The translations under genes and the position numbers were made by a program. Below are positions 42,609-47,516 of a stretch of 64,000 bases of DNA, in pieces; position 1 is the stretch's first letter, and each line of letters opens with the position of its first letter. Origin of the DNA: Streptomyces cacaoi (GTDB taxonomy: Bacteria; Actinomycetota; Actinomycetes; Streptomycetales; Streptomycetaceae). The stretch covers positions 1-64,000 of the forward strand of contig NZ_BJMM01000020.1 of the NCBI RefSeq assembly GCF_006539165.1, in the 5' to 3' direction. The notes beneath the pieces are model-generated. The model was not told the origin of the DNA. It saw only the letters and a program-made list of their open reading frames with translations, and did no database searches.

Positions 42609-43004
42609 TCAGGGGGTGTGCGGGGGCTCACCGTCCGTCCGCCGGTCCTTCAGCAGGCTCCGGCCGAACTCGACCATCTTGCGGGTGTAGTCCTCGCTCC
42701 ACCGCCCGCGGTCGGCGATGGCGGCGTCGTCCAGCTTGTCGAAGCGGCCCGGGTCGGCCAGCTGTGCCGCGGCCATCGCCTGGAACTCCATGGCCCGGTC
42801 GGCGGCGGCGCGGAAGGCCAGGACCAGCTCCGTGGAGCGGTCCAGCAGTTCACGGGGGTCGGTGAGGGACTCCAGACCGAAGAAGTGCTCGTCGTCGGGC
42901 TGGGCCTCGGTGGGCTCGAACAGCAGCGGTGCCGGCCGCTTGGGGCGCGGTGCTCCGTCGCCGTGTCCGCCGGACGGGCCGGAAGCCGCGTGCGGCTCGG
43001 ACAT
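42609..43004 (-). CDS. Conserved hypothetical protein
   Basis: A 131-residue soluble acidic protein with a disordered N-terminus and a helical core, HFFGLESLTDPRELLDRSTELVLAFRAAADR followed by MEFQAMAAAQLADPGRFDKLDD. I recognise no family or motif. GGAGG eight bases before the ATG at 43004 supports the start. It follows the helicase operon by 195 bases on the same strand and might be its last cistron, although the gap is larger than any inside that operon. Confidence 0.65.
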   Translation of the reverse strand: MSEPHAASGPSGGHGDGAPRPKRPAPLLFEPTEAQPDDEHFFGLESLTDPRELLDRSTELVLAFRAAADRAMEFQAMAAAQLADPGRFDKLDDAAIADRGRWSEDYTRKMVEFGRSLLKDRRTDGEPPHTP

Positions 43005-43199: not shown

Positions 43200-44639
43200 T
43201 CAGCGCAGGCGCACGGTATGGCCGGCCAGCCGGGCGAGTACCGCCTGGTGGGCCTCCCAGCCGTCCGGCGCCGGGGACCAGGTGCCCAGCCGGGCCGGCT
43301 CGGTCGCCGGGTGGTCGTCCAGCAGTTCGGGCACACCCGCCCGGCACACCACCAGACAGGCGTGCCGGTGCCGGGAGGTGAGCACGCACAGCCGGCCCGT
43401 CTCCAGATGGAACTCGGTGGCGTCCGGGCGGCCGGAGAGCGGGTGCAGCATCACCGTGACGTCGAACTCCCGGCCCTGGAGCCGGTTCGCGGTGTCCACC
43501 GTGACCCCGGGCCCGCCGCCCTCCCCGCTTTCACCGCTCTCCCGGTCGCCCTCGTGGTCGCCGGACCGCCCGGCCCCCGGGCCGCCCTCGGCGAGGGGAC
43601 CGAGTGCGGCGCGGACGGCGGCGGCCTGATCGCGGTGCGCGGTGCCCACCGCGACGCGGTCCGCGGTCAGCGGCGCCGGTCCGTCGCCGCGCTCGCTGCG
43701 GGTGACGCCCTCGCGCTCCAGCAGCCGGCGCACCAGCGCGGCCACGGCGGCCACGGCCTCCGGGTCGGTGCGGGGCGTACGGGCCGCCGGCAGCTCCAGC
43801 AGGCCCCAGCCCGAGGCGGCGGCGACATCCAGCACCTCGTCCACGGCGGAGCCGTCCGCGGGCCCGGTGAACTCCAGACTCCTGTCGCCCGGCCCGGTGC
43901 CGCTGCGGAACGGGGTGTACGGGTAGAACGCCTCGGAGACCAGCGGTGCAGCGGAGGCGGGAAGCCGCCAGGAGACGGGCAGCCGGTGCTGCGGCAGGCC
44001 CGGGTTGTGCGCCAGGAGCGTGCTGACCGCGCTGGCCGCCGGATCGTGTGCCTGGCCCGCCCACTGGGTGGCGTCCGCCTGGCTGAACGGGTCCAGCTGC
44101 CCGGGGTCGCCCACGAACAGGGCGCGCTCGAACAGCCCGGCGACGGCGAGCAGCGCGTCCGAGCGCATCTGGTACGCCTCGTCGACGATCGCGCAGCGCC
44201 ACTGCTCGCCCGGCTTGACCCACGCCCACTTCGCCGCCGTCGAGACGACGATGTCCATGCCCGCCAGATCGGCCGACTTCGCCGAGGTGCGGACCGCCGG
44301 GTGCCGGTCGAGCGCCGGGTCGTAGGCGTGTGCGTCGCTGCTGTGCAGCCGGCCGACGGGCAGGTCGGGGTCGGCGCTGGCGAGCCGGTCCACCAGATCG
44401 TCGACCTGCGCGTTCGTCTGTGCGATCACCATCAGCGGCCGGCCCGCGGCGGCCAGTTCGCGGGCAGCGCGGACCACCAGCGTGGACTTGCCGGCGCCCG
44501 GCGGCGAGTCCACGACGACGCCCGGGACGCTCTCGTCCAGTGTGTCGGCCAGGATCCGTTCGGTGGCCAGCGCGGCCGCGGCACCGGGATCGCCGACGGC
44601 GGCCTCCGCCTGGCGCGGGAGATGTACGGACGCGGTCAC
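43200..44639 (-). CDS. SF1 DNA/RNA helicase-like ATPase
   Basis: A 479-residue superfamily 1 helicase-type protein. Motif I (Walker A) is VDSPPGAGKSTLV, motif II is AIVDEAYQM (Asp153-Glu154), motif III is FVGDPGQLDPF, motif V is TANRLQGREFDVTVML, and motif VI is VLTSRHRHACLVV. The arrangement resembles the Dna2/Upf1 group, but the protein is compact with little accessory domain. A Gly/Glu-rich insertion precedes motif V. GTG 44639 overlaps the stop of a 53-codon cistron as GTGA, with AAGGAG inside that cistron. As the last gene of the nuclease operon it is the likely motor partner of the Fe-S nuclease. Confidence 0.85.
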   Translation of the reverse strand: MTASVHLPRQAEAAVGDPGAAAALATERILADTLDESVPGVVVDSPPGAGKSTLVVRAARELAAAGRPLMVIAQTNAQVDDLVDRLASADPDLPVGRLHSSDAHAYDPALDRHPAVRTSAKSADLAGMDIVVSTAAKWAWVKPGEQWRCAIVDEAYQMRSDALLAVAGLFERALFVGDPGQLDPFSQADATQWAGQAHDPAASAVSTLLAHNPGLPQHRLPVSWRLPASAAPLVSEAFYPYTPFRSGTGPGDRSLEFTGPADGSAVDEVLDVAAASGWGLLELPAARTPRTDPEAVAAVAALVRRLLEREGVTRSERGDGPAPLTADRVAVGTAHRDQAAAVRAALGPLAEGGPGAGRSGDHEGDRESGESGEGGGPGVTVDTANRLQGREFDVTVMLHPLSGRPDATEFHLETGRLCVLTSRHRHACLVVCRAGVPELLDDHPATEPARLGTWSPAPDGWEAHQAVLARLAGHTVRLR

Positions 44640-44797
44640 GCTGCGGCTCCTTCCGGGACGCACACGGCTCCCGCCGCGGGCTCGTCCTCGGTTTCCGGTG
44701 CGGGCGGGTCGGCCTCCGGTGCGGGCCCGGCCCCGGTTCCCGGCGGGGACGGAGCCGGTGGTGCCGGTCCTCCGGCCGGCAGGTGGGCGGGTGTCAC
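44636..44797 (-). CDS. Coupled 53-residue Pro/Ala-rich peptide
   Basis: A 53-codon frame that starts with GTG overlapping the stop of the upstream gene (GTGA) and whose TGA overlaps the GTG of the helicase (GTGA again). GGAGG lies eight bases before its start. The peptide begins VTPAHLPAGG, is rich in Pro, Ala, Gly and Glu, and contains a single Cys (GAVCVPEG). It has no fold signature and may be disordered. Its value may lie in passing ribosomes to the helicase, or it may be a small partner. It is short enough to be missed by routine gene calling. Confidence 0.6.
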   Translation of the reverse strand: MTPAHLPAGGPAPPAPSPPGTGAGPAPEADPPAPETEDEPAAGAVCVPEGAAA

Positions 44798-46335
44798 AGG
44801 AGGTCCTCCGGGGTGGTCGGGTCCGGGGGCTCGGCGGTGGCCTCCGGCGGGGGGCCGCCGTGGGTCCACGGCGTCTCCTCCGGCTCCGGCAGCGCGGGCC
44901 CGCCGCGCGGCGCGTGTTCGAACAGCGTCCAGCAGTCGCGGTCGCCGGGCTCCGGCACCGTCCCCGGCGCCGGCTCCTTGCCCCGCCCCATGCCGTTGAC
45001 CAGGCGCAGCACGTACACTCCCGGCTCGGGGGCGCCGACCACCTCGGCGCGCTGCCCGCCGCCCTCGGGCAGCGCCCGGTACACCGCGTCGCCCTCGGCG
45101 AGCAGCGGCCGGTCGTGCTCCTCGGCGCGGACCGTCACCAGCGGGCGCGGGGTGGGCCGCTTGCCCTCCGACACGGCCGGTTCGACGTGTGCCGCACGTG
45201 CCGCGAACGCCTCGCCCGCCAGCCGCCGTACGGCCATCACCAGCGGATCGTCCAGCGCCTCCTGGGCGTCCAGCTCCGCCTGGCGCTGCTCGCGCATGGC
45301 GAGCTTGCGTGCCGCCGTCACCGCGTCGTCCCGGCGCGGCTGCGGGGGTTCCGCCGAGCGCAGCCGGTCCCTGTGGTGGGTGTAGGACTGGCGGTCGCGC
45401 CGCCAGCGGTCCGCGGTATGGGCGCCCTCGGGCAGGGAGCGCAGCAGGTCGACGCCCTGCCACATGGCCTCCCAGGTGGGCCGCAGCTGCGAGGCGATCA
45501 GCTCGTGGACCTCCTCGGCCGCGCCGGGGACGCCCTTGTCGTGGCGGGCGAGGGCCGGCGCGAGCAGCCGGTTGTCGAACGCGGGATCGGTGGCGGGCCC
45601 GGCCGGCGGCACCAGCAGCTGCCCGTGCTCGTCCCGTGCCAGCTCGGCGCGGCGGGCCGCCTCGGCCCCGGGGATGCCGTCCGGCGGGGCGATCCAGGCC
45701 AGCAGTGCGCCCAGGTGCTGGTCCTCCAGCCGGCTCTGGCCGGTCGCCCAGTGCCGGGTGAGCAGGTCCGTCATCGACAGCAGCAGGGACGAGCCGGGCA
45801 CCCGTGCGCGCTCGGCGTAGTGCGTCAGCCAGCGGCCCAGCAGCGGCACCCGGGGCGGGGCGGGGTGCGGTGCTTCGGGGTCCTCCTCGGCCGTGCGGCG
45901 GAACCGCATCGAGCGGCCGAGCAGCCGTACGACGTCGATGCCGGGGCCGGTCGGCACGAGCACCTGCGGCGCGTCCGTGCACAGTTCGGCCTGCACCGTG
46001 ACGCGCTTGCCGGTGTCCGGGTCGGTCTCCTTGCGCTCGACGAACTCCACCTCGTCCTGGCAGGACTCCAGGTGCGGCAGCAGCGCCTCGGCGAGCCGTT
46101 CCAGGAAGGTGAACCGCAGGTCGCGGTCGCGCGGCTGCGGCACGGTGAACAGCTCGGGCGCCGCCCGGTCGGTGCCCAGCATCGCGCCGAGCGGCGCGCC
46201 GGTCTCGCCCGCCGTCGTGAGCGGGACGAGGACGAGGGGGCGCGCGGCCAGATGCCGGTGGCGGACCGTCGCCAGCGGGCGTGCCGCGCCGGTGGCCGCG
46301 GCCTCCATCCGGGCCAGGGCGTCGATCAGCGACAT
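44794..46335 (-). CDS. Unrecognised 513-residue protein of nuclease-helicase operon
   Basis: I do not recognise this family. The protein is 513 residues, soluble and charged, with no signal peptide or membrane segment. The N-terminal half has beta-like stretches (RPLVLVPLTTAG, QVLVPTGPGIDVVRLLGRSMRFRR); the middle is helical with Arg-rich parts (DRWRRDRQSYTHHRDRLR); a beta segment near the C-terminus (GQRAEVVGAPEPGVYVLRLVNGMGRG) is followed by an acidic Pro-rich tail. No nuclease or ATPase motif is visible. It overlaps the nuclease gene by 10 nt and the small peptide by 4 nt, with GGGAGG before the ATG, so it is an obligate operon member and probably a structural or DNA-binding subunit. Confidence 0.75.
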   Translation of the reverse strand: MSLIDALARMEAAATGAARPLATVRHRHLAARPLVLVPLTTAGETGAPLGAMLGTDRAAPELFTVPQPRDRDLRFTFLERLAEALLPHLESCQDEVEFVERKETDPDTGKRVTVQAELCTDAPQVLVPTGPGIDVVRLLGRSMRFRRTAEEDPEAPHPAPPRVPLLGRWLTHYAERARVPGSSLLLSMTDLLTRHWATGQSRLEDQHLGALLAWIAPPDGIPGAEAARRAELARDEHGQLLVPPAGPATDPAFDNRLLAPALARHDKGVPGAAEEVHELIASQLRPTWEAMWQGVDLLRSLPEGAHTADRWRRDRQSYTHHRDRLRSAEPPQPRRDDAVTAARKLAMREQRQAELDAQEALDDPLVMAVRRLAGEAFAARAAHVEPAVSEGKRPTPRPLVTVRAEEHDRPLLAEGDAVYRALPEGGGQRAEVVGAPEPGVYVLRLVNGMGRGKEPAPGTVPEPGDRDCWTLFEHAPRGGPALPEPEETPWTHGGPPPEATAEPPDPTTPEDLL

Positions 46336-47516
46336 GCGAGGCCTCCCTCGGTGCCGCCGCCCGCGGGCGGCGCGGGGGTCCCGGCCTGTGCGGGGGCCGG
46401 CGCAGCGGTGGCGAGCGCCTCGGCGCGCAGTGCCGCCGCGCGCCGCAGCGCTTCGGCGGCCGGGTCCCGGGCGGCGGGGTCGTCGGCGTCGGCACGGGCG
46501 GCGGCCAGCACCTCGTGCACCGTCCGCAGTCCGCCCAGCTCGCCGCGCACCGAGCGGCCGAGCGCCTCGACGGCGCCGGCCTCGCGGGCCCGCTCGCGGC
46601 AGTGGAACGCCAGCTCGCAGGTGGCCAGGCACTCCGGCGCGTAGGCGGCGGGCACGGACTCGACGGCGGCGGTGAGCGCGGCGCGGTCCTGCTCGGTGCC
46701 GAAGTGGGCGCCCTCGGGCAGCAGGTCGGCGATCGCGTCGAGGTCGGTGAGCCGGGCGAGCTGGCGGCGGCAGGCGGCGAGCGGTTTGCGCAGGTCGAGC
46801 AGGCCGCCGGCGGGCTGGTTGCCGAAGTCCTTCGGGCACACCAGCAGGGCCTGTTCGCGGACGGGGACGCTGCCGGTCAGCGCGAGGGCGTAGACGGCGG
46901 CCTGCCGGGCGGCGCCCCCGGCCTTCGTCGGGTCGACGGTGCCGTCCAGGACGGGGAAGGACTTGATCTCGATCACCGTGACGCCGCCGTCCGGATGCAC
47001 CGCCAGCGCGTCCGGCTCCAGATACGCCGTCGCCCCGGCGACCTCCAGGGTGAGCAGCGGATGGTCCAGCAGGGCCCACTGCCCGGCGGGGACCTCGGCC
47101 AGCGCGAGGCCGGTGCGGGCCGCGCGGCCGGCGGGGCCGTCGGCCGTCAGATCGGGGACGAGCACGGCGGAGGGCTCCGGGCGCTCCTCGCCGGTGCTCT
47201 CGCACAGCAGCGCGAGCAGGGCCTCGCCGCCGTCCGCCTTCACCCGGGCCTCGAAGGCGTTGCCGCGGACGAAGGCGAACTGCGACTGGCCGAAGGGCGC
47301 GGGGGCGCCGAGCGCCTGGGCGACGGCTGCCTTGTCCACACCGGCGCCGTCGAGCAGCGCGCGGCGGCGGCAGCCGGGGTTCGCGGCGAGCGCGGACAGC
47401 GCACGGGCGTCGAGGGGGCGCTGCGGCACTTCGGGTCCGCCGCGCAGCGCGTCGAGCCGCCGGCTGCGGGGCGGGGCCGCCGTCGAGGGGGCCCCGGGGG
47501 GCGGGGAGGGTGTCAT
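46326..47516 (-). CDS. Cas4/AddB-like Fe-S PD-(D/E)XK nuclease
   Basis: A 396-residue RecB-family nuclease. Motif I is RGNAFEARV (Gly85-x3-Glu89), motif II Asp169 (LEPDALAV), motif III Glu183-x-Lys185 (VTVIEIKSF), and the Q-x3-Y motif is Gln205/Tyr209 (ARQAAVYA). Four cysteines are placed as in iron-sulphur nucleases of the Cas4, AddB and Dna2 type: Cys49 near the N-terminus and Cys296, Cys300, Cys306 in [15 protein letters not shown]. The C-terminus is Ala-rich. It is the first gene of a four-cistron operon ending in an SF1 helicase. There is no CRISPR array or cas1 nearby, so a repair or defence role is more likely than adaptation. Confidence 0.85.

Follow-up and report, generated by a model that had tools for sequence, protein, structure and literature searches.

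We analyzed a 64,000-nucleotide (nt) stretch of DNA from Streptomyces cacaoi (contig NZ_BJMM01000020.1, positions 1 to 64,000), hereafter referred to as the window, in which three consecutive genes on the minus strand were found to form a conserved set. The first, NUC (46326 to 47516), encodes a 396-amino-acid (aa) nuclease of the RecB/Cas4/Exo5-type PD-(D/E)XK class with four conserved cysteines, predicted to hold an iron-sulfur (Fe-S) cluster as an iron staple. It is followed by MID (44794 to 46335), whose 513-aa product had not been placed in any family before and consists of an N-terminal alpha/beta part, a helical middle, and a C-terminal beta-barrel. The third gene, HEL (43200 to 44639), encodes a 479-aa superfamily 1B (SF1B) Upf1/Dna2-like helicase core that is devoid of a barrel domain.

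An earlier note on this DNA had described the region as four overlapping cistrons of a split Dna2-like set, one of them coding for a micro-peptide. NUC, MID, and HEL were confirmed at the positions given above, and the three genes proved to be real and kept in order in relatives: all three occurred together in 31 of the 34 loci fetched on a NUC or MID match; of the other three, one is truncated where its contig stops and two were false leads. An overlap was seen between NUC and MID in 74 of 121 fetched loci and between MID and HEL in 67 of 107.

The claim of four overlapping cistrons held for NUC and MID, which overlap by 10 nt in the window, but not for the remainder, since MID and HEL lie 154 nt apart there. 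This gap is bridged solely by a 53-codon open reading frame (ORF) on the minus strand (44636 to 44797), which overlaps its neighbor by 4 nt on each side and is not conserved, with tblastn detecting no relative in any of the 34 loci. In locus L054, the closest relative examined (MID 82% identical), MID and HEL overlap and therefore leave no space for a small ORF. Where a gap of 60 to 500 nt separates the two genes (23 loci, 22 of them distinct), a small ORF spans it in five, and these sequences look unrelated by eye. On these grounds the micro-peptide was rejected as a component; the ORF probably has no part in the system and is most likely a Pro/Ala-rich spacer.

Motifs and predicted folds of NUC, HEL, and MID

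All residues that the earlier note had named for a RecB-fold nuclease were found in NUC, namely, G85, E89, D169, E183-x-K185, Q205, and Y209, along with the four cysteines C49, C296, C300, and C306; the catalytic core motif E183-I-K185 is encoded at 46962 to 46970 on the minus strand. D169, E183, and K185 are jointly kept in 119 of 124 NUC relatives, and C296, C300, and C306 in all 124. C49 is present in each of the 107 relatives whose gene model reaches that position, the other 17 models being too short. For this residue-conservation set, loci L077, L078, L167, L217, and L239 were left out, and the duplicates L202 and L214 were kept among the 124.

The AlphaFold model of NUC (predicted local distance difference test [pLDDT] of 90) agrees with such a fold. 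Its structural matches include Cas4, RecE, MGME1, Exo5, AddB, AdnA, and the nuclease domain of Dna2, with Z scores of 10.9 for Cas4-Cas1, 8.6 for Exo5, and 7.2 for Dna2 (over residues 5 to 316). At the sequence level, the window NUC yielded no significant family match, and PDDEXK_1 was weakly touched by 2 of 45 aligned members. When the NUC sequence was searched against the PDB, the sole matches were to two engineered proteins, spanned 32 residues, and were regarded as spurious. The predicted structure supports a RecB/Cas4/Exo5-type fold, and the conserved residues include four cysteines in iron-staple positions. Weak NUC matches in genome G108 and at a second site in genome G009 (L079 and L080) lie outside any operon.

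HEL carries the main motifs of a superfamily 1 helicase, as had been noted earlier, and these are nearly invariant in 113 relatives. The protein scored 41.1 bits with Pfam AAA_11 (cutoff, 27) and was above the cutoff of AAA_30 as well, and its UvrD_C_2 score of 13.9 bits fell below the cutoff of 27.4. When a HEL profile was compared with the PDB, DNA2 was the top match (E value, 3e-13), and hhalign aligned HEL with the helicase end of the one-chain RecB-like nuclease-helicases of TIGR03491 (99.4%; E value, 2.7e-21). HEL has no barrel ahead of its P-loop because the P-loop begins near residue 46. By its sequence, HEL can be classed as a small SF1B helicase of the Upf1/Dna2 type.

Two relatives of this helicase were seen in other settings. 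In genome G731 (L141), a shortened HEL-like gene has neighbors that on inspection resemble AAA and VWA genes, with NUC and MID not in view; it perhaps belongs to another system using the same helicase branch, and this distant gene was left out of the last helicase tree. In a distant form of the operon in genome G304 (L136, 6058 to 7752), the gene directly downstream of HEL encodes an RNase_H_2 protein that matches PDDEXK_1 weakly and resembles a one-chain nuclease-helicase minus its helicase.

MID, the protein that could not be placed from its letters, still has no sequence-level family, and its sequence found no match in the PDB. A structure search with its AlphaFold model (pLDDT, 90.9) now likens its C-terminal barrel (residues 375 to 473; 44917 to 45213 on the minus strand) to those of Upf1-like helicases, including SETX, Sen1, and IGHMBP2. 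The barrel aligned with SETX at a Z score of 9.5 (root mean square deviation [rmsd] of 2.7, 86 residues aligned), with Sen1 at 9.3, and with UPF1 at 8.3; residues 3 to 140 of IGHMBP2 aligned from MID residue 320 onward, also at 8.3 but with an rmsd of 7.8. The top four of the 50 structure-match rows are Senataxin and Sen1 barrels, and IGHMBP2 and UPF1 rank lower. In the model, the helices just before the barrel are a candidate stalk.

Comparison with Dna2 and other helicase-nucleases

The published work drawn upon is PMC4716839, PMC7430649, PMC5704561, PMC10586767, PMC12624138, and PMC5869714. In the structure of Dna2, the barrel sits on a two-helix stalk between the nuclease and the helicase, an element common to Upf1, Ighmbp2, and Senataxin (PMC4716839). 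DNA2 and the operon have in common an Fe-S nuclease of the RecB fold (the cluster being predicted for NUC), a barrel with its stalk (a candidate one in MID), and an Upf1-like SF1B helicase, in the same order. Since the gene order NUC-MID-HEL equals the domain order of Dna2, we read the operon as a three-chain Dna2-like machine, in which the nuclease, the barrel/stalk, and the helicase would reside in one protein each, with MID bringing ca. 370 further residues. We consider it fairly probable that the three proteins associate in a single complex with a Dna2-like mode of action, trimming or destroying DNA ends. The basis for this is the genes themselves, their motifs, predicted folds, and conserved order, as well as the repeated adjacency of related copies to SbcCD and defense genes. 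Fold, motifs, and gene order thus agree with the split Dna2-like set proposed earlier, from which the micro-peptide has to be excluded.

In the mechanism that we propose, HEL would be a 5′-to-3′ motor on single-stranded DNA made of two RecA domains only. MID would supply the barrel and stalk that usually reside in the same chain in Upf1-like helicases, thereby completing the helicase, and would bridge NUC and HEL by docking the motor to the nuclease. NUC would cut single strands, with a 4Fe-4S cluster stapling its fold together. The complex would move 5′ to 3′ and cleave the strand in front of its motor, as the work on Bad describes for DNA2-like enzymes (PMC7430649). The overall function would be the resection or degradation of DNA ends; the core copy, which is the one in the window, may serve repair or innate immunity and would process the ends of chromosomal or foreign DNA, relying on end-opening activity of the cell itself. 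If so, a function can be proposed for an operon that almost every genome sampled from the Streptomyces family carries, and a Dna2 in three chains would have its nuclease, barrel, and motor separable, mixable, and mutable singly, unlike single-chain enzymes.

Several known systems resemble the operon without matching it. DNA2 is a single chain, whereas the operon encodes three proteins, with an additional gene in other lineages, is bacterial, and has related copies in defense islands. Bad, a bacterial DNA2-like enzyme of Geobacillus, combines a four-cysteine iron-staple nuclease with an SF1B helicase as the operon does, and its central domain, which is unexplained, occupies the position of MID; however, Bad is one chain and sporadic in occurrence (PMC7430649). 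The single-chain feature of DNA2 and Bad being absent, the operon was not filed as DNA2. The RecB-like nuclease/helicases of the TM0106 family (TIGR03491) have a helicase end homologous to HEL, but they are one-chain proteins with which NUC and MID cannot be aligned by profile. The motors of AddAB, RecBCD, and AdnAB are UvrD-type superfamily 1A (SF1A) helicases in large fused subunits, whereas HEL is Upf1-like, its UvrD_C_2 score lying below the cutoff. These complexes are likewise helicase-nucleases for DNA ends, and AddB possesses a four-cysteine nuclease, too (PMC7430649).

The earlier note held that the idea of a dedicated module would fail if the nuclease and helicase were ordinary parts of a described system or if their gene order varied among relatives. 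Neither check counted against the idea, the order being kept in relatives. Among the members scanned, no convincing match of NUC, MID, or the additional gene to a known family or defense system was obtained from Pfam, NCBIfam, or PADLOC. In PADLOC-DB 2023, MID was matched in 0 of 53 members, NUC reached two models, each through a single weak member of the 45, and HEL gave partial helicase matches only (MkoA, 28.8 bits). The combination did not appear among the matches listed from open-licence literature.

The core locus and copies beside SbcD, SbcC, and Wadjet genes

MID was detected in 60 of the 61 genomes of the window's family (the Streptomyces family), and the site is largely fixed among 27 core-type loci. 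Within the class sample, HEL was present in 71 of 394 genomes, of which 39 belong to the window's genus and five of these hold a second copy; genome G643 of that genus is listed without HEL, and most genomes without HEL are absent from that listing. In the phylum sample, MID occurred in 16 of 396 genomes, four of them outside the window's genus. Beside HEL, a 131-aa protein without a family match is encoded on the minus strand (42609 to 43004). It is a conserved neighbor and a candidate member of the operon, adjoining HEL in 25 of the 27 core-type loci and inverted in five (L070 to L072, L083, and L084). Upstream of NUC, directly or a few genes away, a gene that we read as phosphatase-like lies in 21 of the 27. 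A scan of viral_contigs for phage carriage matched 11 stretches, none of them a relative.

Such a distribution bears on the idea that the operon is mainly a housekeeping DNA-repair complex for end resection in actinobacteria, with the copies in defense islands being passengers or secondarily recruited. We regard this as a real possibility, although not the probable one. The near-complete occupancy of a largely fixed locus by MID within the family and the 71 class genomes with HEL argue for it, patchiness being usual for defense systems, as does a helicase tree that tracks families for most rows. It is weakened by the rarity of MID across the phylum and by the related copies repeatedly found beside unrelated defense systems and on plasmids. 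Furthermore, AdnAB is described as the main helicase-nuclease of Streptomyces (PMC5869714), which leaves room for a second, specialized machine.

The related copies come from a wider range of organisms. In named genomes, the operon was found in Streptomyces, Actinomadura, Micromonospora, Nocardia, Amycolatopsis, Streptosporangium, Frankia, and others. These loci are the best 80 of 544 confirmed stretches for a MID query of the type linked to SbcD/SbcC, and loci of that type are therefore overrepresented. Outside annotated records, genes were called with a G+C-based caller, and some starts are wrong. In second copies and in several other lineages, an additional gene, designated X, lies directly upstream of NUC; the earlier note did not include it. 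Among the 61 family genomes, X occurs only in the three that carry a second copy, and it is not in the window's genome. The members of X scanned had no Pfam or NCBIfam match, and from inspection by eye the protein is possibly DNA binding.

SbcD and/or SbcC adjoin the operon in 22 of 129 nonredundant loci of this enriched sample. The survey comprised 135 rows, 24 with SbcD/SbcC (12 of which had Jet genes of the Wadjet system) and 111 others, of which one had Jet; removal of the duplicates L077, L078, L167, L202, L214, and L217 left 129 loci, 22 of the SbcCD type and 107 others. L231, with no intact MID called, and L233, with neither MID nor HEL called, were counted as SbcCD type. SbcD/SbcC are divergent from the operon in 17 of the 22 loci (Streptomyces, Nocardia, Trebonia, and others) and lie downstream in the same direction in five (Amycolatopsis, Kibdelosporangium, and one Micromonospora), and the existence of two arrangements argues that joining took place at least twice. 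The SbcCD label requires six changes on the helicase tree, by a parsimony count that is blind to gain versus loss.

The SbcD of these modules is an additional copy, since five genomes with a module SbcD (G048, G652, G757, G042, and G658) each have a second, distant SbcD elsewhere; G717 showed one only. Compared with SbcCD (Mre11-Rad50), the extra copy joined to the operon passes for SbcD, with 128 bits in L243 versus a TIGR00619 cutoff of 77.65, whereas SbcC of that locus stays below the TIGR00618 cutoff (185.4 versus 478.5 bits). SbcC of L140 lies above the cutoffs of Pfam AAA_23, SMC_N, and SbcC_Walker_B. In Streptomyces cyaneochromogenes (NZ_CP034539; L166 and L167), the chromosome record carries the arrangement SbcCD-X-NUC-MID-HEL in two copies, one near each end, probably within terminal inverted repeats.

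Defense genes recur beside the noncore copies, among them JetA, JetB, JetC, and JetD of Wadjet (types I to III); HmaA and Ppr; LmuB of Lamassu; and restriction genes of types I, III, and IV. In the nonredundant set, Jet genes were present in 11 of the 22 SbcCD-type loci versus 1 of the 107 others, with the weak calls in L142 (35%) and L195 (30 to 40%) counted as Jet. On two Streptomyces plasmids, X-NUC-MID-HEL is followed by JetA-, JetB-, JetC-, and JetD-like genes, the last encoding a JetD-domain protein in both, and a divergent SbcD-SbcC is intact in one plasmid and reduced to remnants in the other. In five loci, with Wadjet of types I and II, JetA lies 154 to 263 nt beyond HEL on the same strand, and in L219 and L231 the Jet genes come after SbcC on its strand (types II and III). 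These neighbors of the mobile copies are more specific than the repair complex or phage-defense module guessed at earlier, but the window copy has none of them.

With X and SbcCD, the set could be an accessory of Wadjet, either destroying the linear product of small circular plasmids cut by Wadjet or attacking linear DNA that Wadjet spares. We find this doubtful. The uneven distribution of Jet genes, the close spacing of HEL and JetA, the Jet genes after SbcC, and the evasion of Wadjet by linear plasmids (PMC10586767) all speak for it. On the other hand, half of the SbcCD-type loci have no Jet genes in the stretch covered, the Jet assignment is weak in 2 of the 11 loci, and an independent-pairs test of SbcCD with Jet gave three supported pairs and a median P value of 1. 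Because this test has low power and defense genes generally cluster without cooperating, cooperation with Wadjet stays a hypothesis. The linkage nevertheless makes the fate of foreign DNA after cutting by Wadjet a testable question.

For the mobile copies, the three-chain Dna2-like reading would be extended by X and a dedicated SbcD-SbcC: SbcCD would open blocked ends, onto which NUC-MID-HEL would load to degrade inward, and we infer that these copies serve in defense against foreign DNA, often beside Wadjet. In eukaryotes, Mre11-Rad50 is the pathway partner of DNA2, and the archaeal HerA-NurA-Mre11-Rad50 operon encodes a nuclease-motor pair together with Mre11-Rad50 for end resection, HerA and NurA being protein families other than NUC, MID, and HEL. 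If our reading is true, the linkage to SbcCD is a bacterial counterpart, at the gene level, of resection by Mre11-Rad50 plus Dna2. Quite tentatively, SbcC, SbcD, X, NUC, MID, and HEL may constitute an undescribed actinobacterial machine of Mre11-Rad50 and a split Dna2, the counterpart of eukaryotic MRN/DNA2. This machine would have arisen more than once by joining, would move on plasmids, and would serve immunity by destroying DNA, clearing plasmids cut by Wadjet and attacking linear foreign DNA that Wadjet misses, with the fixed copy of the Streptomyces family being a domesticated or ancestral form.

Weight of the three-chain reading

A number of observations weigh against a Dna2-like complex of NUC, MID, and HEL. 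Unrelated barrels come within 1 Z of the best matches of MID (lumazine protein, 8.9; F1-ATPase, 8.8); thus, the barrel match is support rather than proof and rests partly on context. Residues 1 to 372 of MID have no assigned fold. When MID or NUC was compared by hhalign with six one-chain nuclease-helicases, the probabilities were 0.1 to 0.4%, i.e., no match; row L320 among these six is the longest frame (793 aa) and may not be the actual gene. No fusion of NUC, MID, or HEL was found among the 386 frames matching at least one of the three.

The linkage of the three genes is not obligatory either, since HEL lies ca. 36 kilobases from NUC-MID in genome G257 and NUC-MID occurs without HEL in view in many Micromonospora-type loci (L134 and L135 of G257, L137 of G605, L189, L190, L207 to L212, and similar ones); in the window itself, MID and HEL do not overlap. 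In L075 (9017 to 10135) and L143, related mobile copies beside HmaA/Ppr genes, NUC has L and R in place of E183 and K185. The C-terminal cysteines are retained in both, and these proteins are probably inactive nucleases that have nonetheless been kept in the operon. Finally, SbcCD, X, or Wadjet was found near 0 of the 27 core-type loci, so that the defense reading rests on the related copies and not on the window.

A rather unlikely alternative is that MID serves as a scaffold or specificity factor of unrelated origin, its barrel likeness being a coincidence of a common fold and HEL working alone. The tie in Z scores with unrelated barrels and the lack of any sequence-level match would suit such a protein, but the top four structure-match rows are barrels of HEL's own helicase branch, and the three-chain Dna2-like complex fits the gene order, the absence of this domain from HEL, and the frequent MID-HEL overlap.

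Other arrangements were encountered among the distant and mobile forms. In genome G221 (L154), a distant form of the operon stands beside genes for a UvrD/PDDEXK helicase-nuclease and for a type III methyltransferase, as well as genes that on inspection look integrase-like; this is probably a mobile island. In two Micromonospora species (L169, 11579 to 13915, and L174), a large gene sits between MID and HEL and is matched by PADLOC HEC-05 models in L169; in L168, another gene, of 350 aa, sits between the two.

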